From Acidobacteriaceae bacterium (lineage in GTDB: Bacteria > Acidobacteriota > Terriglobia > Terriglobales > Acidobacteriaceae): a stretch of 64,000 bases of DNA. The notes below the pieces were generated by a model. That model did not search any database. It saw only the letters and a program-made list of their open reading frames with translations, and had not been told where the DNA came from. Made by a program: the position numbers and the translations under genes. Where the stretch lies: contig PLXE01000094.1 of assembly GCA_003151335.1 (NCBI GenBank), forward strand, positions 1 through 64,000, given 5' to 3'. Position 1 is the first letter of the stretch, and every line of letters begins with the position of its first letter. Shown one piece after another: positions 2,603 through 18,371 of this stretch.

Positions 2603-4039
2603 CTACTTCAACAAGTCCTGTGCGCCCTGAATTGCATATTCGAGTACGCGTCCGGGCAGCACGCCGAGATAGATGGTCATGATCAGGCTGATCGCCAATC
2701 CAATCCCCAGCCCCACCGGAATGCGGGCCACCGGAGCTTCACTGCGCTCGTCCCGCATGTACATAACGATGATGATGCGCAGGTAATAATACGCGGCAAT
2801 CGCGCTGTTGATGAAGCCGATGATGGTGAGCCAAACCAGGCCGGATTGCAGCGCGGCGGAGAAGACATAGAACTTGGCGAAGAAGCCGCCAGTGACGGGA
2901 ATGCCGATCAGCGAAAGCAGAAAGATGGTGAGGATGCCGGCCAGCAAGGGCGAGCGGCGTCCCAGTCCGGCGTAGTCGTCGAGAGTAACGTACTTCTCGC
3001 CGGCGGAAGCGAAATGGCTGACCACGGCAAACGCGCCGACGTTCATCGCCGCATAGGACGCGGCGTAGAACATGGCGGCGGAGATGCCGACCTGCTGCCC
3101 GGCCGCGAAAGCCACCAGCAGATATCCGGCGTGGGCGATCGACGAGTAAGCCAGCAGGCGCTTGACGTTCTGTTGCACCAGCGCGCCGATGTTGCCCAGG
3201 GTCATGGAGAGCGCCGCCGACACCCAGACCATCCAGAACCAGCCGGGCGCGCCGGTGGCGAAGAGCACGCGCAGCAGCACCGCAAACGCCGCCGCTTTCG
3301 GGCCGGTGGACATCAGCGCAACCACCGGCGCTGGCGAGCCTTCATAAACGTCGGGAGTCCACACGTGAAATGGCGCCGAGGCCACTTTGAAGCCCAGCCC
3401 GACGAACATCAGGCCCACCGCCAGATAGGCCAACGTGGATTGCTGGATATGCAGGAACTTGGCGATGTTGTAGATGTTGGTGGTGCCGGTGGCGCCGTAG
3501 ATCATGGCCACGCCGTACAGAAAGAACGCGGTGGCAAAGGAGCCGAGCAGGAAATACTTCAATGACGCCTCGGCGCTCTCCGCGGCGCGGCGGCGCATGC
3601 CAGCCAGAATGTAAGTCGAGATCGAAGAAATTTCCAGGGCGATGAAGATCAGCACCAGCTCAATGGCGGACGACATCAGCATCATGCCGACGGTGCCGAA
3701 AAGAATGAGAGCGTAATACTCGCCGCTGGCGCGGATGCTCTGCACATCGAGATAGTCATACGAGGCGAGGATAACGACCAGCGCGATCATCAGCACGACC
3801 ACATGGAAGAACACGCTGAAGGTGTCAACTCTGACCATGTGGTAAAAAGCTTCGCCGTAGAAGCCCGTCTGATAGGCGGTTGCGGCGAGGGCCGCGAGAG
3901 TGCCTACCACCGCCACAATGCCCAGCCGCTTTCTCGATCCCTGCTCGGGAAGGACCGGGTCCACCATCATGACAATGATGCCGAAGATGCTGAGCACCAG
4001 CTCAGGAAGGACCCGAATGTAGTCAACGGCCGGAATCAT
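2603..4039 (-). CDS. nuoN: NADH-quinone oxidoreductase subunit N
   Basis: NuoN is one of three antiporter-like proton-pumping subunits of complex I. The 478 residues are nearly all membrane helix and carry the family signature FKVASAPFHVWTPDVYEGSP (lysine plus WTPDVYEG) and LALEISSISTYILAG with the helix-5 glutamate. Its ATG (4039) overlaps the nuoM stop by the ATGA pattern, so the two are translationally coupled. It is the last gene of the operon. Length is normal and no frame damage is seen. Confidence 0.96.
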   Translation of the reverse strand: MIPAVDYIRVLPELVLSIFGIIVMMVDPVLPEQGSRKRLGIVAVVGTLAALAATAYQTGFYGEAFYHMVRVDTFSVFFHVVVLMIALVVILASYDYLDVQSIRASGEYYALILFGTVGMMLMSSAIELVLIFIALEISSISTYILAGMRRRAAESAEASLKYFLLGSFATAFFLYGVAMIYGATGTTNIYNIAKFLHIQQSTLAYLAVGLMFVGLGFKVASAPFHVWTPDVYEGSPAPVVALMSTGPKAAAFAVLLRVLFATGAPGWFWMVWVSAALSMTLGNIGALVQQNVKRLLAYSSIAHAGYLLVAFAAGQQVGISAAMFYAASYAAMNVGAFAVVSHFASAGEKYVTLDDYAGLGRRSPLLAGILTIFLLSLIGIPVTGGFFAKFYVFSAALQSGLVWLTIIGFINSAIAAYYYLRIIIVMYMRDERSEAPVARIPVGLGIGLAISLIMTIYLGVLPGRVLEYAIQGAQDLLK

Positions 4040-5619
4040 CGTCCGATCACCTGCAGTACAGCTTGCACTCCATTACGCGCTACATCGGCGCCCGACAAAT
4101 ACCCTGGGGCGTGAGCTGCGTGCGCCTGGACAACGCTGGAGAACTGCCTCAACGTCGCGGCGACCGCCGGATCAATCGAGTGCAGCCACAGCATCGGCGC
4201 AACTCCCATGACTAGCGCCGCAATCGCCAGCGGCCACAACGAGACGCGCTCACGAGCGCTCAAATCACGCAACGAGTTGTTGACCGGATTGGTGACGTTT
4301 CCGTAGAACACGCGCTGATACATCCACAACAGATAGCACGCGCTCCAGATGACGCCGGTGGCCGCCAGAATGCCGTAGAGCTGCTTCGCCTGGAAGGCGC
4401 CGCTCAGCACCATGAACTCGCCGATAAAGCCATTCAGCAGCGGCAAGCCCACCGACGACAGCATGATGAACGCGAAGAAGGTTGCGTACACCGGCATAGG
4501 CGTGGCGAGCCCGCCGTATTCGCCGATGTCGTAAGTGTGACGGCGATCGTAGATCATGCCCAGCAGCATGAACAGCGCGCCCGTGGAGATACCGTGGCTC
4601 AGCATCTGGTACACCGCGCCATCCATTCCAATCTGCGTGAAGCTGAAGATGCCGAGCACCACAAAGCCAAGATGGCTGACCGAGGTGTAGGCGACCAGCC
4701 GCTTGATGTTGGGCTGAATCATCGCCACCAGTGCGCCATAGATGATGCCGATGATAGCGAGGGCGATGATCCACGGAGCGTTACGCCGCGATTGGTCGGG
4801 AAAGAGCCCCAGGTTGAAGCGCAGCAAACCGTAGGTGCCCATCTTCAATAGCACGGCCGCCAGCAGCACCGAACCCGCAGTGGGAGCCTCCACGTGCGCG
4901 TCGGGCAGCCAGGTGTGCAACGGGAATAGCGGCACCTTCACGGCGAAGGCCACGAAGAAGCCGAGGAACAGCCAAAACGCTGCGTGCTCGAATCCTGCCA
5001 CCTGGCCTGATTGAATCTTGCCTTGGATGTCGACGAAATCAAACGTTCCGGTCTTGGCGTACAGCCAGATCACCGCCGCCAGCATGAACACCGACGCGAT
5101 CATGGTGTACAGGAAAAACTTCACGGAGGCGTAGATTTTCCGCCCGTGCCCGTACATGCCGATGATCAGCGCCATGGGAATCAGCGTGGCTTCCCAGAAG
5201 AAGTAGAAGAGGAACAGGTCGAGCGCGACAAAGACGCCGATCATCGCGGTCTCGAGCACCAGCATGAGGATGAAAAATTCCTTCACCCGGTCGCCGATGG
5301 AATTCCACGAGATGAGCACGCACATCGGCATCAGGAAGGTGGTCAGGATGACCAGCCACATGGAAATGCCGTCGATGCCGAGGTGGTAGTGAATGTTGGG
5401 ATGGGCAATCCAGGGGATGTTCTCCTCGAACTGGAAGCCGCTTTGCCCGCGAACCAGGTACCACGGCAGGTGCAGCGAAGCGAGCAGAGTGATCAGCGAG
5501 ACCGCCAGCGCGAAATAGCGGATATCGCGATGGCGCCGCGGAAAGAACAACAGCAGAATGGCCCCCGCCAGCGGCAGAAAAATAACGATGGTGAGGATGT
5601 TGTTGTTGATGAGATTCAT
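4036..5619 (-). CDS. nuoM: NADH-quinone oxidoreductase subunit M
   Basis: An antiporter-like proton-pumping subunit of about 527 residues. The essential helix-5 glutamate is in LFYFFWEATLIPM, and the helix-7/8 region reads AVKVPLFPLHTWLPDAHVE with the conserved lysine. ATG at 5619 is chosen over the upstream 5634 because it makes an ATGA overlap with the nuoL stop and is preceded by GGAGGGG at a good distance. Co-transcribed with nuoL and nuoN. Confidence 0.96.
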   Translation of the reverse strand: MNLINNNILTIVIFLPLAGAILLLFFPRRHRDIRYFALAVSLITLLASLHLPWYLVRGQSGFQFEENIPWIAHPNIHYHLGIDGISMWLVILTTFLMPMCVLISWNSIGDRVKEFFILMLVLETAMIGVFVALDLFLFYFFWEATLIPMALIIGMYGHGRKIYASVKFFLYTMIASVFMLAAVIWLYAKTGTFDFVDIQGKIQSGQVAGFEHAAFWLFLGFFVAFAVKVPLFPLHTWLPDAHVEAPTAGSVLLAAVLLKMGTYGLLRFNLGLFPDQSRRNAPWIIALAIIGIIYGALVAMIQPNIKRLVAYTSVSHLGFVVLGIFSFTQIGMDGAVYQMLSHGISTGALFMLLGMIYDRRHTYDIGEYGGLATPMPVYATFFAFIMLSSVGLPLLNGFIGEFMVLSGAFQAKQLYGILAATGVIWSACYLLWMYQRVFYGNVTNPVNNSLRDLSARERVSLWPLAIAALVMGVAPMLWLHSIDPAVAATLRQFSSVVQAHAAHAPGYLSGADVARNGVQAVLQVIGR

Positions 5620-7580
5620 CGCACACCCCTCCACACCATGAAGGCGATCACGGCCGCCGCGCCGATGGCGACCCAGCCCGCGTAGGAACGAATGTTGCCG
5701 GATTGCATGTGGCGCATCTCGTCGGAAACTTCGCGCGCGCCGGCGGCGCCGCCGTCCACCGCGCCGTCAATCAGCCCGCGATCGATGCCTTTCCAGAACA
5801 CGGTCGAAGACAGCGCAATCAGCGGCTGTATGAATACCGCCCCGTAGAGTTCGTCCACCTTGTACTTTTCGAGCACGAAGATATACAGCCCGCCGGCAGC
5901 CTTCGCCATTTTCGCGGGCAACTCAGGCCGCTTGTAATACAGCCACCAGGCGGCCAGTAATCCAAGCAAGCCAACCGCTACAGAGATAAAGGTGAAGGCC
6001 AACTCTGTGGTAGATTCGCCTTGCTCCGCGGCTCCTTCGGCGGTGGCGGCGGTCGCGTTGAACACTGGCGAAAGAAAGCTGCCAAAATGGTCGGAGCCCT
6101 GGAGCACGTGGGGAACGCCAATCCATCCGCCAACCAACGAGAGCAGCGCAAGGATCATCAGTGGCACCACCATCACCCATGGACTCTCATGGGGAGCGCC
6201 GTGTCCGTGGCTGCCGCCAGCATGTCCCGCCGCCTCCGGATTGGGCCCGCGGTAGTCGCCAAAGAAGGTGAGGAACCATAGCCGGAACATGTAGAACGAG
6301 GTCATGCCGGCGGTGATGATGCCGATCACCCAAAGGACGTGATAGCCGCCGCTCCAGGCCGACCACAGAATCTGGTCTTTGGAGAAGAAGCCGGCAAAGG
6401 GCGGTATTCCGGCGATGGCGAAGGTCGCGAACGTCATGCACCAGAAGGTGTAGGGCAGGTACTTTCGCAAGCCGCCCATGTTGCGCATGTCCTGCTCGCC
6501 GCCCAGGCCATGAATCACCGAGCCCGCTGCCAGGAACAGCAGTCCCTTGAAGAAGGCGTGGGTTACGAGGTGAAAGATTCCGCCTACGTAGTCCGCCACG
6601 CCGCAGGCCATGAACATATAGCCGAGCTGCGAAATGGTGGAGTAGGCCAGTACCTTCTTGATGTCGGTCTGCACGATGCCGATCGACGCCGCGAAGATCG
6701 CAGTCAGCGTGCCAATGATCGCCACCGCCAACGCCGCATCGGGCGCGCGATTAAATACTAGATGCGAGCGGGCCACCATATAGACGCCGGCGGTCACCAT
6801 GGTTGCCGCGTGAATCAGTGCGGATACCGGAGTGGGGCCCTCCATCGCGTCGGGCAGCCAGACATACAGTGGAATCTGCGCAGACTTGCCGGTTGCGCCC
6901 ACCAGCATCAGCAGGCCAATCGCCGTCAGCAAGCCAGCAGCGCCAGTTTCGACGGGGTACTTGCTGATAAGCGGCCACAGACTGTCGTACTGCAGCGTGC
7001 CGAAATGCTTGATCAGCAGAAACAGCGCGATCAGGAACCCGAAATCGCCGACGCGGTTGGTGAGGAAGGCTTTCTTGCCCGCATCGGCCGCCGACTTCTT
7101 CAGGAACCAGAATCCGATCAGCAAGTATGACGCCAGGCCCACGCCCTCCCAACCGACGAACATCAGCAGATAGTTGTTCGCCAGCACCAGCGTGAGCATG
7201 AAGAACATGAAGATGTTGAGATAGGCAAAATAGCGGTAGTAGCCGCCTTCATGCTCCATGTAGCCGACGGAATAAACGTGGATGAGAAAGCCGACGCCGG
7301 TGACCACCAGCATCATCACCAGTGAGAGCTGGTCGAGATAAATGCCGAACTCCGCCGAGAACGGGCCCGCACTCAGCCAGGTGCCATAGCGCTCGATGTG
7401 CGGAACCTGGTCCGGCGGCAAACCGAGGAACTGCGCAGCCACCCACAAAGCCATGGCAAACGCAGCCGCGGTGGATCCCAGGGCGATGGCGCTCACCAGT
7501 GCCCTGGAAAAGCGCTTGCCCAACAGCCCATTGATGGCAGCTCCGGCCAGCGGCAGTAACGGAATGATCCACAAGTGCAT
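5616..7580 (-). CDS. nuoL: NADH-quinone oxidoreductase subunit L
   Basis: The 654-residue distal proton-pumping subunit. It shows VGWEGVGLASYLLIGFW (helix-5 glutamate), KSAQIPLYVWLPDAMEGPTP (pump helix 7/8) and a long C-terminal extension, expected to hold the amphipathic lateral helix that runs along NuoM and NuoN. A His/Gly-rich loop (HAGGSHGHGAPHESP, about residue 455) lies between late helices. The start ATG at 7580 follows nuoK by about 48 bases. Confidence 0.96.
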   Translation of the reverse strand: MHLWIIPLLPLAGAAINGLLGKRFSRALVSAIALGSTAAAFAMALWVAAQFLGLPPDQVPHIERYGTWLSAGPFSAEFGIYLDQLSLVMMLVVTGVGFLIHVYSVGYMEHEGGYYRYFAYLNIFMFFMLTLVLANNYLLMFVGWEGVGLASYLLIGFWFLKKSAADAGKKAFLTNRVGDFGFLIALFLLIKHFGTLQYDSLWPLISKYPVETGAAGLLTAIGLLMLVGATGKSAQIPLYVWLPDAMEGPTPVSALIHAATMVTAGVYMVARSHLVFNRAPDAALAVAIIGTLTAIFAASIGIVQTDIKKVLAYSTISQLGYMFMACGVADYVGGIFHLVTHAFFKGLLFLAAGSVIHGLGGEQDMRNMGGLRKYLPYTFWCMTFATFAIAGIPPFAGFFSKDQILWSAWSGGYHVLWVIGIITAGMTSFYMFRLWFLTFFGDYRGPNPEAAGHAGGSHGHGAPHESPWVMVVPLMILALLSLVGGWIGVPHVLQGSDHFGSFLSPVFNATAATAEGAAEQGESTTELAFTFISVAVGLLGLLAAWWLYYKRPELPAKMAKAAGGLYIFVLEKYKVDELYGAVFIQPLIALSSTVFWKGIDRGLIDGAVDGGAAGAREVSDEMRHMQSGNIRSYAGWVAIGAAAVIAFMVWRGVR

Positions 7581-7628: not shown

Positions 7629-7931
7629 TTACAGCTTCAGCAGGTTCACGCGATCCACATTCAGGGTTTCGCGGGTACGGAATACGGAAATGATGATGGC
7701 CAGTCCCACGGCCGCTTCCGCAGCCGCCACCACCATCACGAAGAACACGAAAATGTGACCGTCAAGCGACTTGAGCTGCGCGGCGAAAGCAACGAAAGAA
7801 AGATTGACGCCGTTCAGCATCAGCTCAATCGAGAGAAAAATGGTGATGATGTTGCGCTTGATCAAAAAGCCCGCAACCCCACAGGCAAACAGGATTGCGC
7901 TCAACACTAGGTAGTAGGAAAGAGGGACCAT
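7629..7931 (-). CDS. nuoK: NADH-quinone oxidoreductase subunit K
   Basis: The 100-residue three-helix subunit that sits between the antiporter-like subunits and the Q-module of complex I. Both buried glutamates needed for proton transfer are visible, in [14 protein letters not shown] and in [11 protein letters not shown]. Its start abuts the nuoJ stop, which implies tight coupling. Confidence 0.95.
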
Positions 7932-8453
7932 TTATTCCTCCCTCCGCGCCAGCACCACGGCGCCCATGATGGCGATCAGGATCAGCACCGACGTCACCTC
8001 AAAAGGCAACAGAAAATTGCGAAACAACAGATGGCCGATAGCTTGCGGATTGCCGAACACGTCGCTGCCATTCATCACCATGGGCCCGCCGATGGCGATG
8101 CGGTCCAACCCGGCGAGATGACTGACCACCCATACTGCAAGGCTCAATCCAATAATGAGGCCCGGGACACCCAGCACCATGGCAACACGGCTGGCATGTT
8201 CGGTGCGCTCTTCCACTCCCGCGTTGAGCAGCATGATGACAAAGACGAACAGCACCATCACCGCGCCGGCATAGACAATGACTTGCACGGCAGCCACGAA
8301 CTCGGCACCCAGCAGCAGGTAAATCAAGGCCAGCGAACCCATCACCACGATCAACGACAGGGCGCTGTTGATGGGGTGCTTCTGCACCAGCAGGTTTATC
8401 GCCCCACCCACACACAGCGCCGCGAAGATGAAGAACAGAATCAGGGACAGCAT
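7932..8453 (-). CDS. nuoJ: NADH-quinone oxidoreductase subunit J
   Basis: A 173-residue membrane subunit with five hydrophobic helices. The stretch FVAAVQVIVYAGAVMVLFVF is the conserved helix 3 (with the pi-bulge in homologues) that links quinone chemistry to pumping. Only 17 bases separate it from the nuoH stop, so there is no room for nuoI, which normally lies between nuoH and nuoJ. Confidence 0.95.
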   Translation of the reverse strand: MLSLILFFIFAALCVGGAINLLVQKHPINSALSLIVVMGSLALIYLLLGAEFVAAVQVIVYAGAVMVLFVFVIMLLNAGVEERTEHASRVAMVLGVPGLIIGLSLAVWVVSHLAGLDRIAIGGPMVMNGSDVFGNPQAIGHLLFRNFLLPFEVTSVLILIAIMGAVVLARREE

Positions 8454-8470
8454 GGTGATCCGTTGCTGCT

Positions 8471-9505
8471 TTACTTCAGCGCTACGACCAGACTGGTAAC
8501 GACGATATTGGCGATGGCCAGCGGCAGAAGAAACTTCCAGCCAAAGGCCATGAGTTGGTCATAGCGGAAACGCGGCAACGTGCCGCGGACCCAGATGTAA
8601 ATAAACATGAAGGCGAACACACGCAAAGCAAACCAGAATACCGGTAGCAGCGACTGCACAATCGGCGGCCCGAAGACCGGCCCCGACCATCCGCCCAGAA
8701 ACAAAATGGAGGCCAGGCAGGCCACGGTCACCATGTTGGCGTACTCGGCCATGAAGAACATGGCGAACTTCATCGAACTGTACTCGGTATGGTATCCGGC
8801 GACCAGTTCGGTCTCCGCCTCCGGCAAATCGAAGGGGATACGGTTGGTCTCCGCGTAGGCCGCCATGATGTAAATAAAGAAGGCTACAAACTGTCCCCTG
8901 AACAGATTCCATTTAGGAATGAAGCCCAGCCATGTTCCCGCTTGCGAGTCGACGATGTCTCGCAAGCTGAAGCTGCCGGTATAGATGAGCACGCCGATCA
9001 GCGACAGGCCGAGAGCAATTTCGTAGCTCACCATCTGGGCCGAGGCGCGCAGGCCGCCGAGCATGGAGTACTTGCTGTTCGAGGACCACCCCGCCAGCGC
9101 CACTCCGTAGACGCCCACCGAGGTGACGCCCAAAATGATCAGCAGTCCAATGTTGACGTCGGCGATCTGCAGCGGCGTGTTAATGCTGCCCAGCCTGATC
9201 CACGGACCAATCGGAATGACCGCGATCGAGGTCAGCGCCGTGGTCAAGGCGATGATCGGAGCCAGCATGTACAAAGGCTTATTGGCAAAAGGAGGTGTGA
9301 TGTCTTCCTTAAAGATAAACTTTAAGCCGTCGGCAAGCGGCTGCCAGATGCCGAACGGCCCTACACGCGACGGCCCCCAGCGGTTCTGGATGCGACCAAC
9401 CACTTTGCGTTCCAGCAACGTGGTATAGGCCACGGCCGTCAGCAGGATAGCGAGCGCGATCGCGATCTTGACCAGCGAAACCAGGATGTACGTTCCAATG
9501 CCCAT
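8471..9505 (-). CDS. nuoH: NADH-quinone oxidoreductase subunit H
   Basis: The 344-residue membrane subunit that forms most of the quinone-access chamber. Conserved signatures are GPSRVGPFGIWQPLADGLKF near the N-terminus and AYAETNRIPFDLPEAETELV with the acidic loop facing the quinone site. Eight or so membrane helices and normal length. A 190-base repeat-filled gap separates it from nuoG upstream. Confidence 0.96.
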   Translation of the reverse strand: MGIGTYILVSLVKIAIALAILLTAVAYTTLLERKVVGRIQNRWGPSRVGPFGIWQPLADGLKFIFKEDITPPFANKPLYMLAPIIALTTALTSIAVIPIGPWIRLGSINTPLQIADVNIGLLIILGVTSVGVYGVALAGWSSNSKYSMLGGLRASAQMVSYEIALGLSLIGVLIYTGSFSLRDIVDSQAGTWLGFIPKWNLFRGQFVAFFIYIMAAYAETNRIPFDLPEAETELVAGYHTEYSSMKFAMFFMAEYANMVTVACLASILFLGGWSGPVFGPPIVQSLLPVFWFALRVFAFMFIYIWVRGTLPRFRYDQLMAFGWKFLLPLAIANIVVTSLVVALK

Positions 9506-9514
9506 GTCGCTAAT

Positions 9515-9690
9515 AGTTCTCAGCTTTCAGCCGTCAGTGAATCAAATAGCAGCATTCGTCGCGCGATTCTCAGCCCTTAGCATTTAGCCTTTAGTAAAAC
9601 CGTACTGTCATCCCGAGCGAGGTCGCCGCGGCGGGCGAGTCGAGGGACCTGCTTCTCAAACTCGAAACTTGAAACTCGAAACTTTGAAAC
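9515..9690. repeat. Heptamer-period repeats between nuoG and nuoH
   Basis: Three 7-base-period tracts: AGTTCTC/AGCTTTC/AGCCGTC (9515-9538), CCCTTAG/CATTTAG/CCTTTAG (9574-9600) and CTCGAAA/CTTGAAA (9659-9690). Between the last two sits a diverged copy of the GTCATCCCGAGCGAGG family (9605-9653). No reading frame or RNA gene is seen in this gap. Confidence 0.65.
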
Positions 9691-9696
9691 TAACCA

Positions 9697-12060
9697 CTAA
9701 TCACCAGCCACTTGTGCCGCCGTCGTACTATAGCGCTCCATCACGCTGTTCAAGGTGGGCGAATAGCGGCCCAGCGTGCCCGAAGTGAACAGCGTGTCGT
9801 TAGACGGCAGCACGAGTTCGGGATGTCCCGAACCGGTGGCGCCGGTAATCTGCACCAGTTGGGTGTGCTCGTCGTGACCGCTGAGCAGGCCGAGCCGCGA
9901 GATGTCATATCCCGGAACCAGCCGCTGAATTTCGTCCAGCATTGCGGTCGGATCGTAGGGGCTCATCTTGGGCTCGAGGTTATGCTCGGCGAGCCACACC
10001 GCATGCCGGTCGGCTTCGCCCGATTGCGCGCCCCGGCTCTGGCCCATGTCGGCGCGCGTGCCTCCGCCGCCAAACGGCACCAGCTTGTGCACGTCGTATC
10101 CCATGCGATCGGCAATGCGGACAATGCACTCGAAATCGTTACGCACGCCCGCAAATTCACCGGCCTTCTTCAGCATCTGCACGTCGCCGCACGTGTTGGT
10201 GAAGGTCCCGCCCTTTTCGTAGGCATTCGCGATGGGCAGCACCACATCAGCGATGCTGGCGGTTTCGGTGAGGAACATGTCCTGCACCACGACGAAGGCC
10301 TTCGACAGGGCAAAAGGATCGACGTTGTAGCGTGCGATGGGATTGGAGCCGACAACATACAGCGCCTTCAGCTTGCCTTCCTTGGCTGCGTCCACCATTT
10401 GCAGCAGGTCCAAGCCGGGCGACTTGGGAATTTCGTCAACCCAATCTTCGTGAAAGCTGGTCGCGCTGGCGACGGGAGCGTAGCCCGGCAGCATGTCGGG
10501 ATAAAGACCCATATCGGCTGCGCCTCGTGAATTGGCGTAATCGCCCAGGCAGATGAACTTTGCGCCCTGCGCCAGGCCGAAGTTGACCAGCGCCGTCACG
10601 TCGTTGCCGCGCAACTCCGAGCCGAAGATAACAACCAGGTCTTTCTCGTTCTTCAGCTCGTCTCGCAACTGCGACAAAGCTTCACGCGAGAACTGGGGAG
10701 TGACCGCGGCGTCGCCAGCTGCGTCGTTTCCGCCGAGGAACTGCGCCACGCTGCCTTCGGATCCGGACGCGATCTGCGCGAACGCAGCGGCTTGGCGGCG
10801 CAGCTTGATGGGATACGAATTCACCACATAAAGCTTGGCGCGATGCAAGCGGACGTTGGTGCGGATCTGCCACGCCAGCAGCGGATGCTGGTCGGTCGGA
10901 TTGTTGCCGATCAGCAGGATGGCGGGAGCGTCGAAAACGTCGCGCATCGAGGCCGTGGCATTAGCGTTGCCCGCCAGCGCCGAAGCGAAAGCCGGAAAGT
11001 CGGCGGTGCGATGGTGGTCAATGTTATTGGTGCCGAGCACGAGGCGCGCAAACTTTTGCAGCAGGTAATTCTCTTCATTGCTGGTGCGGTTGGAGCCGAT
11101 GACTCCGACGGCGGTTGGCCCGTCGCTGGCCAACACTTGCTTGAACTTCGAAGCGATCCGGTCGAGCGCTTGCTCCCAGGTCGCAGCAACGAACTTGCCT
11201 TCGTGCTTGATGAGCGGCTGCTGGATGCGGTCGCTGCTGTTGGCGAAGTCGAACGCGTACCGCCCCTTGATGCAGAGGAAGTCGCCGTTGATGCCGCTCT
11301 TGTCGCGGTTGTCGCCGCGCACGATCTCCATGCCGGTGTCGGCGCGGCGAACACCCAGCGTGGTTTTGCAGCCGTCGCCGCAATGAGTGCATACGGTGCC
11401 CACGTGCTTCATCTCCCAGGGACGCGTCTTGTAGCGATAAGCGCCCGAAGTGAGCGCGCCGACCGGGCAGATGTCGATGCACATGCCGCACTCTTCGCAC
11501 TCCAGATGGTCTTCTTTGTTGGGAGCGATGACGGAGCCAACATTGCGGTTCTGGATCCCCAGCGCCCAGACGTCCATGCCTTCGCCGCAGACCCGAATGC
11601 AGCGATAGCACAGGATGCAACGCGGACGGTCGAAGTACACCACCGGCGACCATTGCTGCTCGTCGCGGTGGTTCTTCAGGTCCATGAACTTCGACTCGGC
11701 CGCGCCGTACTTGAAGGTCATGTCCTGCAGTTCGCATTCACCGCCAGCATCGCATACTGGGCAGTCGAGCGGATGGTTGGCGAGCACCAGTTCGAGCATG
11801 GCCTTGCGCGCCTGTTTGATCTTGTCGCTCTCGGTGGTGACCACCATGCCTTCAGCGACCGGCGTGGTGCACGCGGTCTGGAGTTTGGGCATCTTTTCGA
11901 CTTCCACCAGGCACATACGGCACGCGCCTTGCAGCGACAGGCCGGGGTAATAGCAGAAAGACGGGATCTCTATGCCCGTGCTCTTGCAGGCCTCAATGAG
12001 GAGCGTCCCCGCGGGAACGGTGAGTTTCTTGCCGTCAACAGTAAGGGTTACATCAGCCAT
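9697..12060 (-). CDS. nuoG: NADH-quinone oxidoreductase subunit G, extra-cluster type
   Basis: The 787-residue iron-sulfur subunit of the NADH-oxidising arm. In order: a [2Fe-2S] ferredoxin domain (C36, C47, C50, C64), the N5 site (H96, C100, C103, C109), a cysteine set at C148, C151, C154, C158, a second complete set C188, C191, C194, C198 ending in CPVGAL, then an N7-type set (C224, C227, C231, C263) and a molybdopterin-oxidoreductase-like domain. Standard NuoG keeps only one cluster in the middle region; here both CxxCxxCxxxC motifs are complete, as in HydA-type hydrogenases and formate dehydrogenases. ATG 12060 is followed by a canonical N-terminus. Confidence 0.95.
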   Translation of the reverse strand: MADVTLTVDGKKLTVPAGTLLIEACKSTGIEIPSFCYYPGLSLQGACRMCLVEVEKMPKLQTACTTPVAEGMVVTTESDKIKQARKAMLELVLANHPLDCPVCDAGGECELQDMTFKYGAAESKFMDLKNHRDEQQWSPVVYFDRPRCILCYRCIRVCGEGMDVWALGIQNRNVGSVIAPNKEDHLECEECGMCIDICPVGALTSGAYRYKTRPWEMKHVGTVCTHCGDGCKTTLGVRRADTGMEIVRGDNRDKSGINGDFLCIKGRYAFDFANSSDRIQQPLIKHEGKFVAATWEQALDRIASKFKQVLASDGPTAVGVIGSNRTSNEENYLLQKFARLVLGTNNIDHHRTADFPAFASALAGNANATASMRDVFDAPAILLIGNNPTDQHPLLAWQIRTNVRLHRAKLYVVNSYPIKLRRQAAAFAQIASGSEGSVAQFLGGNDAAGDAAVTPQFSREALSQLRDELKNEKDLVVIFGSELRGNDVTALVNFGLAQGAKFICLGDYANSRGAADMGLYPDMLPGYAPVASATSFHEDWVDEIPKSPGLDLLQMVDAAKEGKLKALYVVGSNPIARYNVDPFALSKAFVVVQDMFLTETASIADVVLPIANAYEKGGTFTNTCGDVQMLKKAGEFAGVRNDFECIVRIADRMGYDVHKLVPFGGGGTRADMGQSRGAQSGEADRHAVWLAEHNLEPKMSPYDPTAMLDEIQRLVPGYDISRLGLLSGHDEHTQLVQITGATGSGHPELVLPSNDTLFTSGTLGRYSPTLNSVMERYSTTAAQVAGD

Positions 12061-12068
12061 GGAAAAAC

Positions 12069-12216
12069 CGCTATTCGCTATTCGCTAGAGGCTCTTAGCC
12101 TTTAGCTCTTAGCCATCAAATTCTCGTCATCCCGAGCAAGGACTTCAGTCTTGAGCCTGCAAAGTTCGTAGCGACCGTTAAAACTGACAACTGACAACCG
12201 ACAACTGGTAACTGCT
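12069..12216. repeat. Heptamer-period repeats between nuoF and nuoG
   Basis: Units CGCTATT, CGCTATT, CGCTAGA, then AGCCTTT, AGCTCTT (12069-12117), a diverged GTCATCCCGAGC repeat (12123-12156), then AACTGAC, AACTGAC, AACCGAC, AACTGGT (12182-12216). The second tract ends exactly at the nuoF stop codon. No coding content. Confidence 0.65.
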
Positions 12217-13527
12217 TCAGCTCACTAATGCCGCCTCCGCCGCCTTCTCGTACGGGCACGGCTTGCCGTCGAGGTGGTCCTCGAATTCCTTACGAAACTT
12301 CTGAATGTACGAAATGACGGGCATCGCCGCCGCATCACCCAGCGGACAGAACGTGCGCCCCAGCATGTTCTCCGCCAGGTACTTCAAGTTGTCGATGTCC
12401 TTGGCCACGCCGCCACCCGCGTGGAAGCGCGTCAGCGTCTTCTTCATCCAGTCGGTACCTTCGCGGCAAGGGATGCACCAGCCGCAGCTCTCGTGCTGAT
12501 AAAACTTGGTGACGCGCAGCGCAAACCTCACGATGCACATCTGGTCGTCGAGCACGATCACGCCGCCGGAGCCGAGCATCGAGCCCGCCTTCATCATCGA
12601 ATCGAAATCCATGGCGACGTCGATTTCGTCAGGCGTGAGAATCTGCACCGACGATCCACCGGGCACCACGCCCTTCAAATTCTTTCCCTTGGTCATGCCG
12701 CCCGAGACGTCGTAGATCATCTTCTTCAGGTTGTAGCCCATGGGCAACTCGTACACGCCCGGCCGTTCCAGTTCCCCGCTCATGCAGAACAGGCGTGTCC
12801 CACCATTTCTGGGTGTGCCCAGGTTGGCGAACCATTCGCCGCCGCCCAGAATGATGTGCGGCACGCTGGCCAGCGTTTCGGCATTGTTGATGACGGTGGG
12901 CCCGCCCCACAATCCGACGACCGCCGGAAAGGGAGGGCGGATGCGCGGTATGCCGCGCTTGCCTTCAAGCGATTCCATCAGCGCCGACTCTTCGCCGACT
13001 TCGTAAGCGCCCGCGCCGGAATGAGTGAAGATGTCGAGGTCAACGCCCGAACCGAAGATGTTCTTGCCGATGAAGCCGCGCGCGTAGGCATCGGCCACGG
13101 CCTTCTCCATGATCTCCAGCAGGTAGCGATATTCGCCGCGCAGGTAGATGTAGCCCGACTTGGCGCCCACAGCGAGCGCGGCGATCATCACGCCTTCGAT
13201 GACGGCGTGCGGATCGTGCTCAAAGATCAGGCGGTCCTTGCAAGTGCCGGGCTCGCTCTCGTCGCCGTTGCACAGCACGTACTTCGGCTTGGCCGACTGC
13301 TTGGGCACGAACGACCACTTCAATCCGGTGGGAAAGCCAGCGCCGCCGCGGCCACGCAGGTTCGACGTCTTCACTTCGTTGATGATGGCGTCCGCCCCCA
13401 TCGAGATGGCCTTCTGCACGGCCTTGTAGCCGTCGAGCTCTAGATAGCGATCGAGATGGGTCGCGCCCATGCCGAAGCGCTTGGAGACGACCTTGACCTC
13501 ATCGGGATGGGAAACTAAATAGGCCAT
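12217..13527 (-). CDS. nuoF: NADH-quinone oxidoreductase subunit F
   Basis: The 436-residue subunit that binds NADH and FMN and receives the hydride. The glycine-rich FMN/NADH loop is LRGRGGAGFPTGLKW near residue 60, and the N3 [4Fe-4S] ligands are in ESCGWCIPCREGT plus a later cysteine in GRTFCPLGDAA. The start codon lies inside the edge of a heptamer repeat, and the ribosome site AAAGG is part of the repeat. Confidence 0.96.
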   Translation of the reverse strand: MAYLVSHPDEVKVVSKRFGMGATHLDRYLELDGYKAVQKAISMGADAIINEVKTSNLRGRGGAGFPTGLKWSFVPKQSAKPKYVLCNGDESEPGTCKDRLIFEHDPHAVIEGVMIAALAVGAKSGYIYLRGEYRYLLEIMEKAVADAYARGFIGKNIFGSGVDLDIFTHSGAGAYEVGEESALMESLEGKRGIPRIRPPFPAVVGLWGGPTVINNAETLASVPHIILGGGEWFANLGTPRNGGTRLFCMSGELERPGVYELPMGYNLKKMIYDVSGGMTKGKNLKGVVPGGSSVQILTPDEIDVAMDFDSMMKAGSMLGSGGVIVLDDQMCIVRFALRVTKFYQHESCGWCIPCREGTDWMKKTLTRFHAGGGVAKDIDNLKYLAENMLGRTFCPLGDAAAMPVISYIQKFRKEFEDHLDGKPCPYEKAAEAALVS

Positions 13528-13597
13528 TCGCTATTCGCCTTTCGCTCTTGCACTCACTCGCGCCCTCTGGCGAAAAGCGAATAGCGAAAAGCGAACC
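13526..13597. repeat. Heptamer-period hairpin between nuoE and nuoF
   Basis: The left arm TTCGCTATTCGCCTTTCGC (13527-13545) and right arm GCGAAAAGCGAATAGCGAA (13570-13588) are reverse complements at 18 of 19 positions, and each is made of 7-base units. The left arm overlaps the nuoF start codon by one base, so a folded transcript would hide the nuoF ribosome site. Confidence 0.75.
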
Positions 13598-13601
13598 TCG
13601 G

Positions 13602-14084
13602 CTACTGCTCTTCCTTCTTCTTCAGCCCGTCAATCAGCTCGTCGATTTTCGCGGGCGTCAGGTTCTCGTGAAACTCGTAATTCATCATCAGCGCCGGCGC
13701 CCAGGAGCATGCGCCGATGCACTCGACCTCCTCCAGATGGAACAGCCCGTCGGGAGTCGATTCCTTGTTGCCGATACCCAGCTTCTTTTTGCAATGTTCG
13801 AAAATGTCGTCGGCCCCGCGCAAAAGGCAGCTCACATTGGTGCAGACCTGAAGGTTGTACTTGCCGACCGGACGGGTGCGCAGCATCGAGTAATAGCTGA
13901 TGACGTTGCGCACTTCCAGGTCGGTCAGCTCCGTGCGCTGCGCGATCTCGTGAATGGCTTCGTCGGTCACCGCTCCGAGCTCGTCCTGGATGTAGAGCAG
14001 CATGGGCACGAGGACCGAGCGCTTGGTCGGATAGTGCGTGACCATGGTGGCGAAGCGCTGCTCGAGTTGGTCGGAGAATTTCAT
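13602..14084 (-). CDS. nuoE: NADH-quinone oxidoreductase subunit E
   Basis: The 160-residue thioredoxin-like subunit carrying the N1a [2Fe-2S] cluster, bound to NuoF. Ligands are the pair in VCTNVSCLL and the pair in VECIGACSWAP. A helical N-terminal domain (RSVLVPMLLYIQDELGAVTD) is typical. ATG 14084 gives MKFSDQLEQRF. Gaps on both sides hold heptamer hairpins. Confidence 0.95.
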   Translation of the reverse strand: MKFSDQLEQRFATMVTHYPTKRSVLVPMLLYIQDELGAVTDEAIHEIAQRTELTDLEVRNVISYYSMLRTRPVGKYNLQVCTNVSCLLRGADDIFEHCKKKLGIGNKESTPDGLFHLEEVECIGACSWAPALMMNYEFHENLTPAKIDELIDGLKKKEEQ

Positions 14085-14089
14085 GAGTC

Positions 14090-14177
14090 AGCAATTAGCA
14101 TTTAGCAATTAGCACTTAGCAAAAGCATGCGGCGCCGGGAGCCTTGGCTAAATGCCAAATGCTAATTGCTAAGTGCC
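14090..14177. repeat. Heptamer-period hairpin between nuoD and nuoE
   Basis: The left arm (14090-14124) is AGCAATT, AGCATTT, AGCAATT, AGCACTT. The right arm (14147-14177) is GCTAAAT, GCCAAAT, GCTAATT, GCTAAGT. The arms are inverted complements of one another with about 22 bases between them. Confidence 0.75.
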
Positions 14178-14181
14178 AGTT

Positions 14182-15387
14182 CTATCGGTCACAATCGCCC
14201 AGCACGATGTCGATGCTGCCGATGGCGGCGACCACGTCGGCGATCAGGCGGCCTTCGCACATTTTGCGCAGGGTTTGCAAATTGGCAAACGATGGCGAAC
14301 GCATGTGCACCCGGTACGGCTTGGCGGTGCCGTCGCTTACCACGTAGTAGCCCATTTCGCCGCGCGGCGACTCGATCGGCATATAAACTTCACCTTCGGG
14401 TACGGTGAATCCCTCAGTCACAATCTTGAAGTGATAGATGAGCGCTTCCATCTGCGTCTTCATCTTCTCGCGGTCGGGCAGCACCACATGGGGAGCGTCA
14501 GCTTTGACTGGGCCTTCTGGAATTCCTTCCAATGCCTGCTTTACGATCTTCTGCGACTCGCGCAACTCCTGCACCCGCACCACGTACCGCGCAAAGACAT
14601 CGCCATCGTTCGATACCGGAACGTTGAACTGAAATTTTTCATAGCCGCTATACGGCTTGTCGCGGCGCAGATCGACATCAACGCCGCTGGCCCGCAGCGT
14701 CGGCCCGGTTGCGCACAGGGCGATGGCATCCTCCGCCGACAACTGCGCGATGCCCTTGGTGCGACCCGTCCAGATGGGATTGGTGGTCAGCAGGCTCTCG
14801 TATTCGTCGATGTTCGGGGGAAAACGATCGTTAAAATCTTTGACCCGGTCGAAGAAGCCGAGCGGCGGTTCCAGCGCCAGTCCGCCAATGCGGAAGTACG
14901 ACGTCATCATGCGCTGCCCGGAAACCGCCTCGAACAGGCGCAGCACGTCTTCGCGTTCGCGAAAGCAATACAGAAAGACCGTCATGGCGCCGATGTCCAT
15001 GGCGTGCGTGCCCAGCCACACCAGGTGCGAGTTAATGCGGGTCAGCTCGTTCAGCATGACGCGAATCCACTGCGCCTTGGGCGGAATCTCCAGCCCCAGC
15101 AACTTCTCCACCGCCAGGCAGTACGCCAGATTGTTGGTCATGGGGCAGAGATAGTCGATGCGGTCGGTCAGGGGCACGACCTGCTGGTAAAACTTGGCTT
15201 CGCAGGTCTTCTCGATGCCGGTGTGCAGATACCCGATGTCGGGCATGATGCGCACGATGGTCTCGCCGTCAATTTCGAGCACCAACCGGAGCACGCCATG
15301 GGTCGAGGGGTGTTGCGGACCCATGTTAAGGACCATCGTCTTGTCGTCAGACGGATCTAGCACCGGGGTTGGAGTCATGTGGGCCAT
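14182..15387 (-). CDS. nuoD: NADH-quinone oxidoreductase subunit D
   Basis: The 401-residue quinone-site subunit, related to NiFe hydrogenase large subunits. MGPQHPSTHGVLRL near residue 21 is the family signature and contains the histidine that contacts quinone; the C-terminus ends SIDIVLGDCDR. ATG 15387 is two bases after the nuoC stop and is preferred over an upstream start that would overlap nuoC by about 50 bases. NuoC and NuoD are separate here, unlike the NuoCD fusion of E. coli. Confidence 0.95.
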   Translation of the reverse strand: MAHMTPTPVLDPSDDKTMVLNMGPQHPSTHGVLRLVLEIDGETIVRIMPDIGYLHTGIEKTCEAKFYQQVVPLTDRIDYLCPMTNNLAYCLAVEKLLGLEIPPKAQWIRVMLNELTRINSHLVWLGTHAMDIGAMTVFLYCFREREDVLRLFEAVSGQRMMTSYFRIGGLALEPPLGFFDRVKDFNDRFPPNIDEYESLLTTNPIWTGRTKGIAQLSAEDAIALCATGPTLRASGVDVDLRRDKPYSGYEKFQFNVPVSNDGDVFARYVVRVQELRESQKIVKQALEGIPEGPVKADAPHVVLPDREKMKTQMEALIYHFKIVTEGFTVPEGEVYMPIESPRGEMGYYVVSDGTAKPYRVHMRSPSFANLQTLRKMCEGRLIADVVAAIGSIDIVLGDCDR

Positions 15388-15389
15388 GG

Positions 15390-15887
15390 TTAGCGGTAGC
15401 CCTCGACGGGATAATCCTTGCGCAGCGGATGGCCTTCCCAATCCTCGGGCATCATGATGCGCTTCAGGTTGGGATGCTCGTCGAAGCGGACGCCGAACAG
15501 GTCGAAGACTTCGCGTTCGAAGAAATTTGCGCCCGGCCAGATGGGCACCAGCGAGTCCAAGCTGGCATCTTCGCCGGATATCCTCACCTTCAGGCGCAGG
15601 TAAGTCTTGTTGGGAATGGAAAACAGCTGGTAAACGACCTCAAAGCGGGGATCCTTGGGATACCAGTCCACGCAGGTGATGTCGGCCAAAGCGTTGTATT
15701 GCAACTGCGGATCGTTCTTCAGCGTCAGACAGGCTTCGCGCAGCGAAGTGCGGTCCACCCAGATGGTCAGCTCGTTGCGGTCGAACTTCGCACCTGTGAT
15801 CGCGCCGGCATTCCACGCCAGCAGGCGCGCCAGTTCAGGACGGTCTTTCAGTTGCTCGATGTCGGTAATCGCCGGCTGCAGTGCCAT
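15390..15887 (-). CDS. nuoC: NADH-quinone oxidoreductase subunit C
   Basis: A 165-residue hydrophilic subunit of the Q-module (30 kDa subunit family). The C-terminal block FFEREVFDLFGVRFDEHP followed by the PEDWEGHPLRKDYP stretch is diagnostic. It begins three bases after nuoA ends. nuoB normally sits between nuoA and nuoC and is absent. Confidence 0.95.
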   Translation of the reverse strand: MALQPAITDIEQLKDRPELARLLAWNAGAITGAKFDRNELTIWVDRTSLREACLTLKNDPQLQYNALADITCVDWYPKDPRFEVVYQLFSIPNKTYLRLKVRISGEDASLDSLVPIWPGANFFEREVFDLFGVRFDEHPNLKRIMMPEDWEGHPLRKDYPVEGYR

Positions 15888-15890
15888 TCC

Positions 15891-16298
15891 TCAAATCCTC
15901 TCGGCCTTGGCTTGTTTGTTCCAGTCGAGCACGCCCTTCTTCCAGCAATACCAGTACCCGGCTAGCACGATGCCGATGTACACCAGCATCTCCCAGAACC
16001 AGAACATGCCCATGCCGGTGGATTTCAGGTCGCGCTGCACCACCGCCCAGGGATAGAGAAATACCGCTTCGACATCAAACAGGATAAACAACATCGCCAC
16101 CAGGTAGAACTTCACGGTGAAGCGCTGGCGGGCGTTGCCGACCGGCTCCATGCCGCACTCGTAGGGCGACATCTTGGATTTGTTGTACTTGTGCTGGCCG
16201 ATGAAATAGGAGAGCAGCACAATCGCCGAGGCCAAACCTCCGGCGATCAGGACGTGGATCAACAACGGCAGATAGCGTGCGAAATAGAAGTCCGGCAT
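15891..16298 (-). CDS. nuoA: NADH-quinone oxidoreductase subunit A
   Basis: The 135-residue three-helix subunit at the interface of the Q-module and membrane arm, and first gene of the operon. The conserved loop reads MSPYECGMEPVGNARQRF, followed by FILFDVEAVFLYPWAV with the acidic residues that line the proton path. The upstream region contains a perfect -35 box. Confidence 0.95.
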   Translation of the reverse strand: MPDFYFARYLPLLIHVLIAGGLASAIVLLSYFIGQHKYNKSKMSPYECGMEPVGNARQRFTVKFYLVAMLFILFDVEAVFLYPWAVVQRDLKSTGMGMFWFWEMLVYIGIVLAGYWYCWKKGVLDWNKQAKAERI

Positions 16299-16347
16299 GA
16301 TTGCGCAAGCACTCAGGAACTTTCCAGCAAGTGCAGGTAAACATTTG

Positions 16348-16377
16348 AGTTTAGTGATCGTTAACGCTGATTGTCAA
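16348..16377 (-). promoter_or_regulatory. Candidate sigma-70 promoter of the nuo operon
   Basis: On the minus strand TTGACA (16377-16372) is followed after 18 bases by TAAACT (16353-16348), about 50 bases upstream of the nuoA start. The -35 matches consensus fully and the -10 matches four of six. No other good candidate lies upstream of nuoA. Confidence 0.4.
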
Positions 16378-16417
16378 CCGCGCGAAAGGGGTGTTCATCG
16401 GCAATTCACAAAGAGAA

Positions 16418-16660
16418 GTTTCCAGTTTCGAGTTTCAAGTGGGGAAGCAGCATTTAGCAGTTGGCATTTAGCAGTTGGGGTTTAGTACTTGGCATTTAGC
16501 AAGCGGCATTTAGCATTTGGCAGTGACGCGGCAGTTGCCAAAGCGATGCGGCAGCCTCGCGATGCTTCGGGCCTGTACATCGGAAAATCCCAGCCGGTTT
16601 GCCGGCTTGAAATTTGAAACTCGAAACTTGAAACTTGAAACTTGAAACTTGAAACTGCTT
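16418..16660. repeat. Composite heptamer-period repeat upstream of nuoA
   Basis: Three tracts of 7-base units: AGTTTCC/AGTTTCG/AGTTTCA (16418-16440), alternating GCATTTA/GCAGTTG (16450-16523) and CTTGAAA repeated about seven times (16606-16655). The first and third are inverted complements and could pair around the middle tract. With the candidate promoter this accounts for the 360 bases between nuoA and thiS. No gene is seen. Confidence 0.7.
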
Positions 16661-16861
16661 CTAGCCCCCGCCGACAAAGTGCACAATCTCCAGACGATCG
16701 CCGTCCTTGAGAGTTGTCTCTGGCCATTGCGAGCGGGAGACGATCTCGCGGTTGAGTTCGACGGCGACGCGGTCGCCCTTCATTCCGAGTTGCTCGATCA
16801 GTTCTGCCAGCGACAGGGAGTCGGCAAAGCTTTTTTCGTCACCATTGATGAATAAGTGCAT
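16661..16861 (-). CDS. thiS: Sulfur carrier protein ThiS
   Basis: A 66-residue beta-grasp protein ending in HFVGGG. The terminal diglycine is adenylated and thiocarboxylated to donate sulfur for the thiazole of thiamine. [12 protein letters not shown] and the [20 protein letters not shown] pattern match ThiS. No other thi gene lies nearby and no TPP riboswitch is apparent upstream, where only a heptamer repeat is present. MoaD is excluded by the short length and the ELNREIVSR block typical of ThiS. Confidence 0.9.
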
Positions 16862-16867
16862 AGAGAC

Positions 16868-16902
16868 AGTTTCAAGTTTCGGGTTACAAGTTTCAAGTCA
16901 AG
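16868..16902. repeat. Short heptamer-period tract upstream of thiS
   Basis: Units AGTTTCA, AGTTTCG, GGTTACA, AGTTTCA in a row, between thiS and lpxC. Same unit type as the tracts at 16418 and 59212. Confidence 0.6.
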
Positions 16903-16928
16903 AGTGGGGATGGATTATTGCAGTCCAG

Positions 16929-17831
16929 CTAGTCGGCGGCGGAGACGACGGCTTCGGCCGGCCAATCGGCCACCGCCGCTTCGTCGAGGGTAACTTCTTC
17001 CGCGTAGGTGGGATCGCGCAGAATGCGGGAGACGATGGCGGTGTGCATGGCGTGTCCGGCGCGATCGGCCTTGACATAGCCGAGAATGTGCTTGCCGAAC
17101 AAGGCGAGATCGCCGATCAGGTCCAGCACCTTGTGTCGCACGAACTCGTCGCCGTAGCGCAGCGGTGGGTTGTCAATTCCTTCGGGGGTGAGCACGATGC
17201 AGTTGTCGCGCGAGGCGCCGCGAATGAGGCCCATGTTCAGCATCGCGCCCTGCTGCTCGAGGAAACCGAACGTCCGCGCCGACGCGATCTGCTTCACATA
17301 GCTGCCATTGGAAAGCTCGACTTGGAATCTTTCGCTGCCAATCAGCGGGTGCGGGAAGTTAATGGCGTAGCTGACGGAGTACCGTTCCGCCGGATATACG
17401 CCGATGAACTTGTCACCTTCGCGCATTTCGTAGGGACGCAGAATCTTGAGATACACGCGTTTGCGCCGTTGCTGGCGTAAGCCCGCTTGGGCGATCATCT
17501 CCACGAACGGTAGCGCGCTGCCATCCAGGATGGGCAGCTCGAGGTTGTCGAGCTCCACGATCGCATTGTCCACCCCCATCCCGATGAATGCCGACAGCAG
17601 GTGCTCGGTGGTGGAGATGAGCACGCCTTTCTTCATCAAGCTGGTGGCGTAACTGACTTTAGCAACATTGCGACTGATGGCTTCCACTTCAAAGTTGTCG
17701 AGGTCGGTGCGACGAAAGACGATCCCGGCGCCGGTGGGAGCAGGCAGGATACGCAGATGGACCGGCGCTCCGCTATGGAGACCGACGCCACTGCATTCGG
17801 CAGGATTTCGAGTTGTTCGTTCGTAGAGCAA
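16929..17831 (-). CDS. lpxC: UDP-3-O-acyl-N-acetylglucosamine deacetylase
   Basis: LpxC catalyses the committed step of lipid A synthesis, so the cell has LPS. About 300 residues carry SGVGLHSG at the N-terminus, the zinc site ISTTEHLLSAF (histidine near residue 77) and HKVLDLIGDLALFG (second histidine and aspartate), plus GHAMHTAIV near the end. No FabZ fusion. No ATG is available; TTG at 17831 gives LLYERTTRNPAECSGVGLH, which aligns well with other LpxC starts, whereas TTG at 17870 would begin inside a repeat. No clear ribosome site in either case. Confidence 0.92.
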   Translation of the reverse strand: MLYERTTRNPAECSGVGLHSGAPVHLRILPAPTGAGIVFRRTDLDNFEVEAISRNVAKVSYATSLMKKGVLISTTEHLLSAFIGMGVDNAIVELDNLELPILDGSALPFVEMIAQAGLRQQRRKRVYLKILRPYEMREGDKFIGVYPAERYSVSYAINFPHPLIGSERFQVELSNGSYVKQIASARTFGFLEQQGAMLNMGLIRGASRDNCIVLTPEGIDNPPLRYGDEFVRHKVLDLIGDLALFGKHILGYVKADRAGHAMHTAIVSRILRDPTYAEEVTLDEAAVADWPAEAVVSAAD

Positions 17832-17878
17832 AGAGTAAAGAACGTAGTTCTTTCGTAGAGCAAAGAGCAAAGACTAAA
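17822..17878. repeat. Heptamer-type repeat with small palindrome at the lpxC start
   Basis: CGTAGAGCAAAGAG occurs twice, with 7-base units AGAGCAA repeated in the second copy. Between them AAAGAACGTAGTTCTTT (17837-17853) is a perfect 7-bp stem with a 3-base loop. The element overlaps the possible translation start of lpxC. Confidence 0.55.
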
Positions 17879-18371
17879 AAGAGTGACGGTAGCGCAGAAG
17901 ATTAAGATTACAAGCTCTGGGAGACTGCGGTTGTTGTATTTCTACCACAGAAGGTGTCGGGATAAGCACGTCACTGCAAAAGCGGAACTTGCCCACCGCT
18001 ACAATAACTATCGTGTATTAAATGGCTTAGACAACATTTCACAAGAATCGACGCTCCGGTATAGCCAGAGCCAGATCGAGGTTTACTGAAAGAATTCTGC
18101 TGGCGCTAGATTGCGGGATCCGGATTGGGGCCGCTGATTCTTGCAGGGGGGAACCCCCATATTGGTTTAGCTGGCAGAAAGATCTCCGCGAGATCGCGGC
18201 TTGTGGATGCCGGAATGATGACGATAGGCCGTCCTGGAATTCGGTTTCGATCCGGTTGGGGTGAACTTTCGCGAGACTCTAGATAGAATGCTTCCTTCCA
18301 GTCGATTTCAAGAACCTGGCACATCGACTGGCCTTGACGCCAGAACGGCGCAGAAAGAGGGAGGAGACTCC
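17879..18371. other. Gene-free divergent gap between lpxC and pntA
   Basis: About 490 bases without a credible gene. It must hold the promoters of lpxC and the transhydrogenase operon. A TACAAT hexamer at 18000 and a TAGAAT hexamer at 18284 are possible -10 boxes, but neither has a convincing -35. A G5/C5 hairpin lies near 18147-18160. Confidence 0.5.

Follow-up and report, generated by a model that had tools for sequence, protein, structure and literature searches.

An A2-type iron-sulfur cluster site predicted in NuoG of an acidobacterial complex I

The NuoG subunit of complex I is stated to hold three to five iron-sulfur (Fe-S) clusters (PMC5123574). The subject of this report is nuoG of a soil bacterium of the Acidobacteriaceae, which lies on the forward-strand stretch from position 1 to 64,000 of contig PLXE01000094.1 in assembly GCA_003151335.1 (the window, 64,000 nucleotides) and whose product has the ligands for one further predicted [4Fe-4S] cluster. 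A cluster of this type is known from FdsA, the alpha subunit of NAD-dependent formate dehydrogenase (FDH), whose resolved structure contains four [4Fe-4S] clusters and one [2Fe-2S] cluster (PMC7171172). Clusters A5, A4, A2 and A1 of FdsA correspond to N1b, N5, the extra set and N7, respectively, and A3 would be the counterpart of N4. The A2 cluster of FdsA couples A1, the N7 equivalent, to the rest of the chain, whereas in Thermus complex I the N7 cluster has no connection to it. A cluster of the A2 type was predicted from sequence in the complex I of Campylobacter jejuni, Helicobacter pylori and Aquifex aeolicus, though it had not been resolved by 2020 (PMC7171172).

NuoG2 of Nitrospina gracilis, which belongs to a second complex I, is described as having N1b, N4, N5 and N7 together with one additional [4Fe-4S] cluster, and the Kuenenia complex is alike. 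The corresponding NuoF2 has extra ferredoxin-like clusters and no flavin mononucleotide site, for which reduction of ferredoxin has been suggested, and nuoB2 of Nitrospina lies outside the operons (PMC3578206). StnC of the Stn transhydrogenase includes a solved NuoG domain with four [4Fe-4S] clusters, one [2Fe-2S] cluster and an inactive FDH-like part (PMC10482914), while HydA carries an H-cluster part at the place of the N7 and FDH-like part of NuoG (PMC8880783). With precedents in Nitrospina NuoG2, in the sites predicted for C. jejuni, H. pylori and A. aeolicus, and in the solved StnC, the extra cluster is not new in kind. Literature searches of partial coverage returned no paper on extra clusters in acidobacterial NuoG, and the available parts of PMC4859585, PMC10100899 and PMC3150298 held nothing bearing on an extra NuoG cluster.

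The acidobacterial NuoG has cysteines at positions 36, 47, 50, 64, 100, 103, 109, 148, 151, 154, 158, 188, 191, 194, 198, 224, 227, 231 and 263, four others at 25, 504, 624 and 645, and a histidine at position 96. An earlier note on this DNA had read two CxxCxxCxxxC motifs and an N7-type cysteine set from the protein, and the translation has every one of these cysteines where it had been placed. Alignment with NuoG of Escherichia coli K-12 (L132) indicates how the ligands are shared out. The E. coli protein has all the ligands of N1b, N5, N4 and N7, with C198 retained alongside C148/C151/C154, but Y, S, S and L at the positions of C158, C188, C191 and C194. Because E. coli NuoG keeps C198 together with C148/C151/C154 in a protein that is without the extra set, C198 is assigned to N4. 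The alignment thus supports a crossed assignment, in which C148/C151/C154/C198 would bind N4 and C188/C191/C194/C158 would bind the further [4Fe-4S] cluster at the position of A2 in FdsA. A crossed ligand pattern is typical of two-cluster ferredoxins. The earlier note had treated each motif as a set of its own; both motifs are indeed complete, but C158 falls to the extra cluster and C198 to N4. It had also held that E. coli and Thermus lack most of the second set, which for E. coli is right, C198 being the one that is kept, and which for Thermus rests on PMC7171172.

The residues C158, C188, C191 and C194 align with cysteines of a Paracoccus FDH (L130) and of a HydA (L131). The full extra set occurs in these two proteins, which are of the FdsA type and of group A6, respectively, and in the pSymA NuoG of Sinorhizobium meliloti (L129), which itself exceeds the NuoG cut-off. 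FdsA-type FDHs (6tg9 and the Paracoccus protein) have the same five ligand sets as the acidobacterial NuoG, whereas HydA shares those of N1b, N5, N4 and A2 and has no N7 ligands. The likeness to HydA and NAD-dependent FDH that had been pointed out earlier is therefore borne out at the level of ligands, and the alignment supports the proposal of sites for five clusters in NuoG, namely N1b, N5, N4, N7 and one further predicted [4Fe-4S] cluster. The ligands themselves are present in the translation, and a cluster would be expected to assemble on them. Among entries of the Protein Data Bank (PDB), the best sequence match of the Fe-S region is 7q5y ('NADH dehydrogenase I chain G'). It contains the two motifs, set two residues wider apart, and presumably comes from A. 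aeolicus. Chain 8oh5_C matches NuoG at 7.1e-66 and is identified here as StnC by its length of 1172 aa, which equals that of StnC. StnC has a NuoG-like domain with five clusters, the number predicted for the acidobacterial protein, but there the domain is joined to a GltD-like NADPH module within a bifurcating transhydrogenase and is not part of complex I. By description, NuoG proteins from other phyla (C. jejuni, H. pylori, A. aeolicus) resemble the acidobacterial NuoG in having the further predicted site.

None of the eight motif cysteines varies across a 39-member alignment of 36 Acidobacteriota NuoG sequences (the studied one included), one Sinorhizobium NuoG and two FDHs, all of which were chosen as A2-bearing. 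All 80 named relatives, the top 80 of 184, have the eight cysteines as well, although the peptide patterns that retrieved these relatives contained ECEECGMC and were thereby biased toward the extra set. Conservation of the motifs argues that they did not arise by chance. In a larger set of 196 NuoG rows the extra A2 set is complete in 131 and absent from 65, and C188, C191 and C194 are never found in part; such all-or-none presence is what would be expected if these three cysteines act as one unit. C158 persists by itself in 22 of the 65 rows without the rest of the set. The N4 ligands are complete in all 196 rows, and the counts for N1b, N5 and N7 are given in Table 1. The lone exceptions for N7 (L035, with C,Y,C,C) and N5 (L208, with H,C,C,R) are possibly sequencing errors.

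The 196 rows were drawn from the 80 named relatives, from 30 loci found with the NuoG family model in 150 relatives, from 297 genomes of the phylum (28 rows used) and from 60 stretches hand-picked out of the results of these model searches, mostly one per family (55 used), to which the NuoGs of the studied genome, E. coli and Sinorhizobium were added. The A2 set is present in 80/80, 15/30, 22/28 and 12/55 rows of these sources, respectively. Rows found with the family model are free of the peptide-pattern bias, and 49 of 113 such rows have the full set; the hand-picked 55 are among the 113. Selection of the rows was non-random, so the ratio of 131:65 is not an unbiased frequency, and the rows include four identical pairs and some fragments. 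Rows excluded from the 196 were two copies of the studied NuoG itself (L001, L142), another protein of the genome (L002, L003), a truncated E. coli copy (L128), the HydA, and six rows taken to be FDHs on account of their length and FDH-like motifs (L130, L194, L212, L219, L220 and L221).

The A2-lacking frames, measured from stop to stop as were all frames, are of two sizes: 41 measure 515-718 aa, and the other 24, with that of E. coli among them, measure 848-1091 aa; A2-bearing frames, the studied NuoG left out, are 685-917 aa long. Forty-three acidobacterial rows from other families of the phylum (L162-L201 except L194, and L208-L211) are without the A2 set and keep N7, and 41 of them have open frames of 515-718 aa. 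In most such rows the best stretch in the phylum search spans only about the first 330-345 of the 606 model positions. One genome (G368) has both kinds of NuoG, L138 without the A2 set and L206 with it. On the strength of the ligands, Acidobacteriota join the complex I enzymes with a predicted A2-type site.

A maximum-likelihood tree of the Fe-S part was built from 86 rows with the four A2 positions masked, and was rooted on FDH and HydA. All 51 A2-lacking NuoGs in the tree fall on one side of a single branch (support 97/92; 96% of 200 bootstrap trees), and 29 A2-bearing NuoGs, five FDHs and one HydA fall on the opposite side. Since the A2-lacking NuoGs make up one side and FDH and HydA are found on the A2-bearing side, A2 is read as ancestral, and on the simplest reading it looks to have been lost once within the present sampling, in the E. 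coli-like line. For the term 'additional', under which the cysteines had been introduced, an ancestral site followed by loss in the E. coli-like line is the better reading.

The best explanation of these observations, and very probably the right one, is that NuoG is a subunit of an ordinary complex I in an acidobacterium of the Terriglobales type and has retained the two-cluster ferredoxin domain of a common ancestor of complex I, NAD-dependent FDH and HydA. The subunit would carry five clusters, with a side branch that leads from N4 through A2 and ends at N7. Based on homology, A2 would lie between N4 and N7, and N7, an isolated cluster in the Thermus enzyme, would therefore be joined to the chain through that branch. 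The branch is most likely redox-connected and most likely ends at N7, because the catalytic Cys-His pair of FDH has been lost. In a MAFFT alignment the Cys-His columns hold D and F in the studied NuoG, and a phmmer alignment puts other residues there that are likewise not Cys-His. Across 37 NuoG rows the Cys column holds D in 32, S in two, E in two and P in one, and Cys in none. The most likely function of such a branch is in stability or charge storage, not substrate turnover. Alternatively, the branch could be a working path in which NADH charges N7, and N7 buffers electrons next to the flavin end of the chain or trades them with a partner docked on the FDH-like domain, which is without a molybdenum cofactor (Moco); this appears unlikely.

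Several points weigh against the retention of an ancestral five-cluster NuoG with a side branch to N7. NiFe-HydABCSL, a related enzyme, has a corresponding A4/A5 branch that lies within electron-transfer range but is called non-functional in electron transfer and is regarded as a dead end left over from evolution (PMC8880783). Outside Acidobacteriota the sampling is thin, with one E. coli, one Sinorhizobium, one Paracoccus FDH, one HydA and the PDB matches. The tree gives the grouping of A2-bearing NuoGs little support (86/28; 84% of 200 bootstrap trees), the branches to HydA, L194 and L129 are long, and the root was the analysts' choice. It could be argued from the support for this grouping and from the long outgroup branches that Acidobacteriota acquired the extra cluster secondarily, for example by recombination with FDH or HydA. 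Such a gain is very unlikely, since the A2-lacking group splits off with high support even with the A2 columns masked, FDH and HydA fall opposite that group, and A2-type sets are found as well in Sinorhizobium NuoG and in the solved 7q5y. Structure prediction is a further point of difficulty. The AlphaFold2 model of full-length NuoG (12 alignment rows) has a mean predicted local distance difference test (pLDDT) score of 53.0, with residues 91-275 below 50, and the model of residues 1-285 (78 alignment rows) has a mean of 47.7, with residues 119-285 below 50. Shallow, close alignments are probably responsible, and because the models failed over the Fe-S region, they weigh neither for nor against the extra site, and the cluster geometry rests on homology. 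Spacing of cysteines by itself is no proof of a cluster, and the persistence of C158 by itself in 22 of 65 A2-lacking NuoGs indicates that single relict cysteines do remain, so the four extra cysteines could be structural remnants with no cluster bound to them, or with one bound only in passing while the complex is assembled. This is judged very unlikely given the joint retention or loss of C188, C191 and C194 in 196/196 NuoG rows and the clusters bound by the homologous sets in solved FdsA (PMC7171172) and StnC (PMC10482914).

The identity of the protein also bears on how the extra site is to be understood, since the site would be normal for the family if NuoG were really an FDH alpha subunit or another Moco enzyme. 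Among PDB sequence matches of NuoG the FDH alpha subunits 9wxb and 6tg9 do rank first by E-value. The protein nevertheless passes the NuoG profile TIGR01973 (484.4 bits; cut-off 470.05) and is far under the cut-off of the FDH alpha profile TIGR01591 (281.8 bits; cut-off 666.25), its gene sits in an operon with nuoACDEFHJKLMN, and, unlike FdsA, it is without the catalytic Cys-His. In addition, the dinucleotide-binding domain PF01568 was not found in NuoG by a Pfam search at E 0.001; matches to it occur in three members of the 39-member alignment, two members of which are FDHs, and the studied NuoG is not among them. An FDH identity, to which next to no probability is given, was discarded on the family-model scores and the missing catalytic Cys-His. 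The iron-hydrogenase (H-cluster) domain was not found in NuoG either (12 Pfam families matched, E 0.001), and the match to TIGR02512 is confined to residues 141-205 (37 bits; cut-off 405.95). A genome search at E 0.001 gave a single match spanning the N-terminal Fe-S part of NuoG. An acidobacterial origin fits the best 80 of 184 named relatives, which are all titled as Acidobacteriota groups and have best-segment identities of 65-95%.

The nuo operon has the gene order A C D E F G H J K L M N on the minus strand, from 16298 down to 2603. By description, Nitrospina NuoG2 has exactly the cluster set of the studied NuoG, and nuoB2 of Nitrospina likewise lies outside the operons (PMC3578206), which raises the possibility of a complex of the NUO-2 kind, as in Nitrospina and Kuenenia, that would pass electrons to ferredoxin rather than to NAD. 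Judged by length and family scores, however, NuoF looks ordinary here, unlike NuoF2: its length leaves little room for extra domains, and it passes both TIGR01959 (Table 1) and NF010120 (498.9; cut-off 389). A NUO-2 complex is for these reasons highly improbable at this locus, and an ordinary complex I remains the preferred assignment.

The operon is missing nuoB and nuoI, which are located elsewhere in the genome, nuoB on contigs C44 and C69 and nuoI on C21; nuoI-like genes slightly under the TIGR01971 cut-off are found on C43 and C95. In relatives, with flanks of up to 6 kb, nuoB was found in 0/55 loci showing nuoA and nuoC, and nuoI in 0/72 loci showing nuoH and nuoJ. A second complex I locus (L222; G000:C95:93000-112500) has nuoC D H I J K L M N at 7879-18042, and nuoA, B, E, F and G gave no match within that 19.5-kb stretch. 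Beyond nuoN, on the plus strand, lie the gene for F0F1 ATP synthase subunit A (1182-1973) and a likely gene for subunit c (2099-2455), and nuoA is adjoined by lpxC (16929-17870, minus strand; TIGR00325, 269.1 bits).

Table 1. Coordinates in the window of nuoG, its predicted cluster ligands and domain, and the other genes of the nuo operon
Feature	Position	Strand	Basis or remark
nuoG, NADH-quinone oxidoreductase subunit G, 787 aa	9697..12060	-	open reading frame and translation; TIGR01973
N1b [2Fe-2S] ligands C36, C47, C50, C64 (predicted)	11869..11955	-	CCCC in 196/196 NuoG rows
N5 [4Fe-4S] ligands H96, C100, C103, C109 (predicted)	11734..11775	-	HCCC in 195/196 NuoG rows
First CxxCxxCxxxC motif: C148, C151, C154 (N4) and C158 (extra A2-type), predicted	11587..11619	-	
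Second CxxCxxCxxxC motif: C188, C191, C194 (extra A2-type) and C198 (N4), predicted	11467..11499	-	complete set in 131/196 rows
N7 ligands C224, C227, C231, C263 (predicted), inside PF04879	11272..11391	-	complete in 195/196 NuoG rows
Molybdopterin-oxidoreductase-like domain, PF00384, residues 278-651, FDH catalytic Cys-His replaced	10108..11229	-	
nuoA	15891..16298	-	NF005922, 110.6 bits, under cut-off 155
nuoC	15390..15887	-	TIGR01961, 146.9 bits, cut-off 122.45
nuoD (start of reading frame unrefined, overlaps nuoC)	14182..15441	-	TIGR01962, 580.8 bits, cut-off 459.35
nuoE	13602..14084	-	TIGR01958, 162.2 bits, cut-off 142.4
nuoF, 436 aa	12217..13527	-	TIGR01959, 596.6 bits, cut-off 558.65
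nuoH	8471..9505	-	NF004741, 344.6 bits, cut-off 305
nuoJ	7932..8453	-	NF005164, 117.5 bits, under cut-off 154
nuoK	7629..7931	-	NF004320, 118.7 bits, cut-off 57
nuoL	5616..7580	-	NF005141, 759 bits, cut-off 556
nuoM	4036..5634	-	TIGR01972, 603.8 bits, cut-off 263.8
nuoN	2603..4039	-	TIGR01770, 423.9 bits, cut-off 332.6

The finding alone alters no established view of complex I. It does set right the view of the extra cluster as something added, since within the present sampling presence of the cluster site looks original and the E. coli type looks reduced. A working path from N4 through A2 to N7, if it exists, would give A2-bearing complex I a second point of electron entry or exit. Acidobacteriota hold A2-bearing NuoGs as well as two size classes of A2-lacking ones, and are thus a natural set in which to ask what a wired N7 does.
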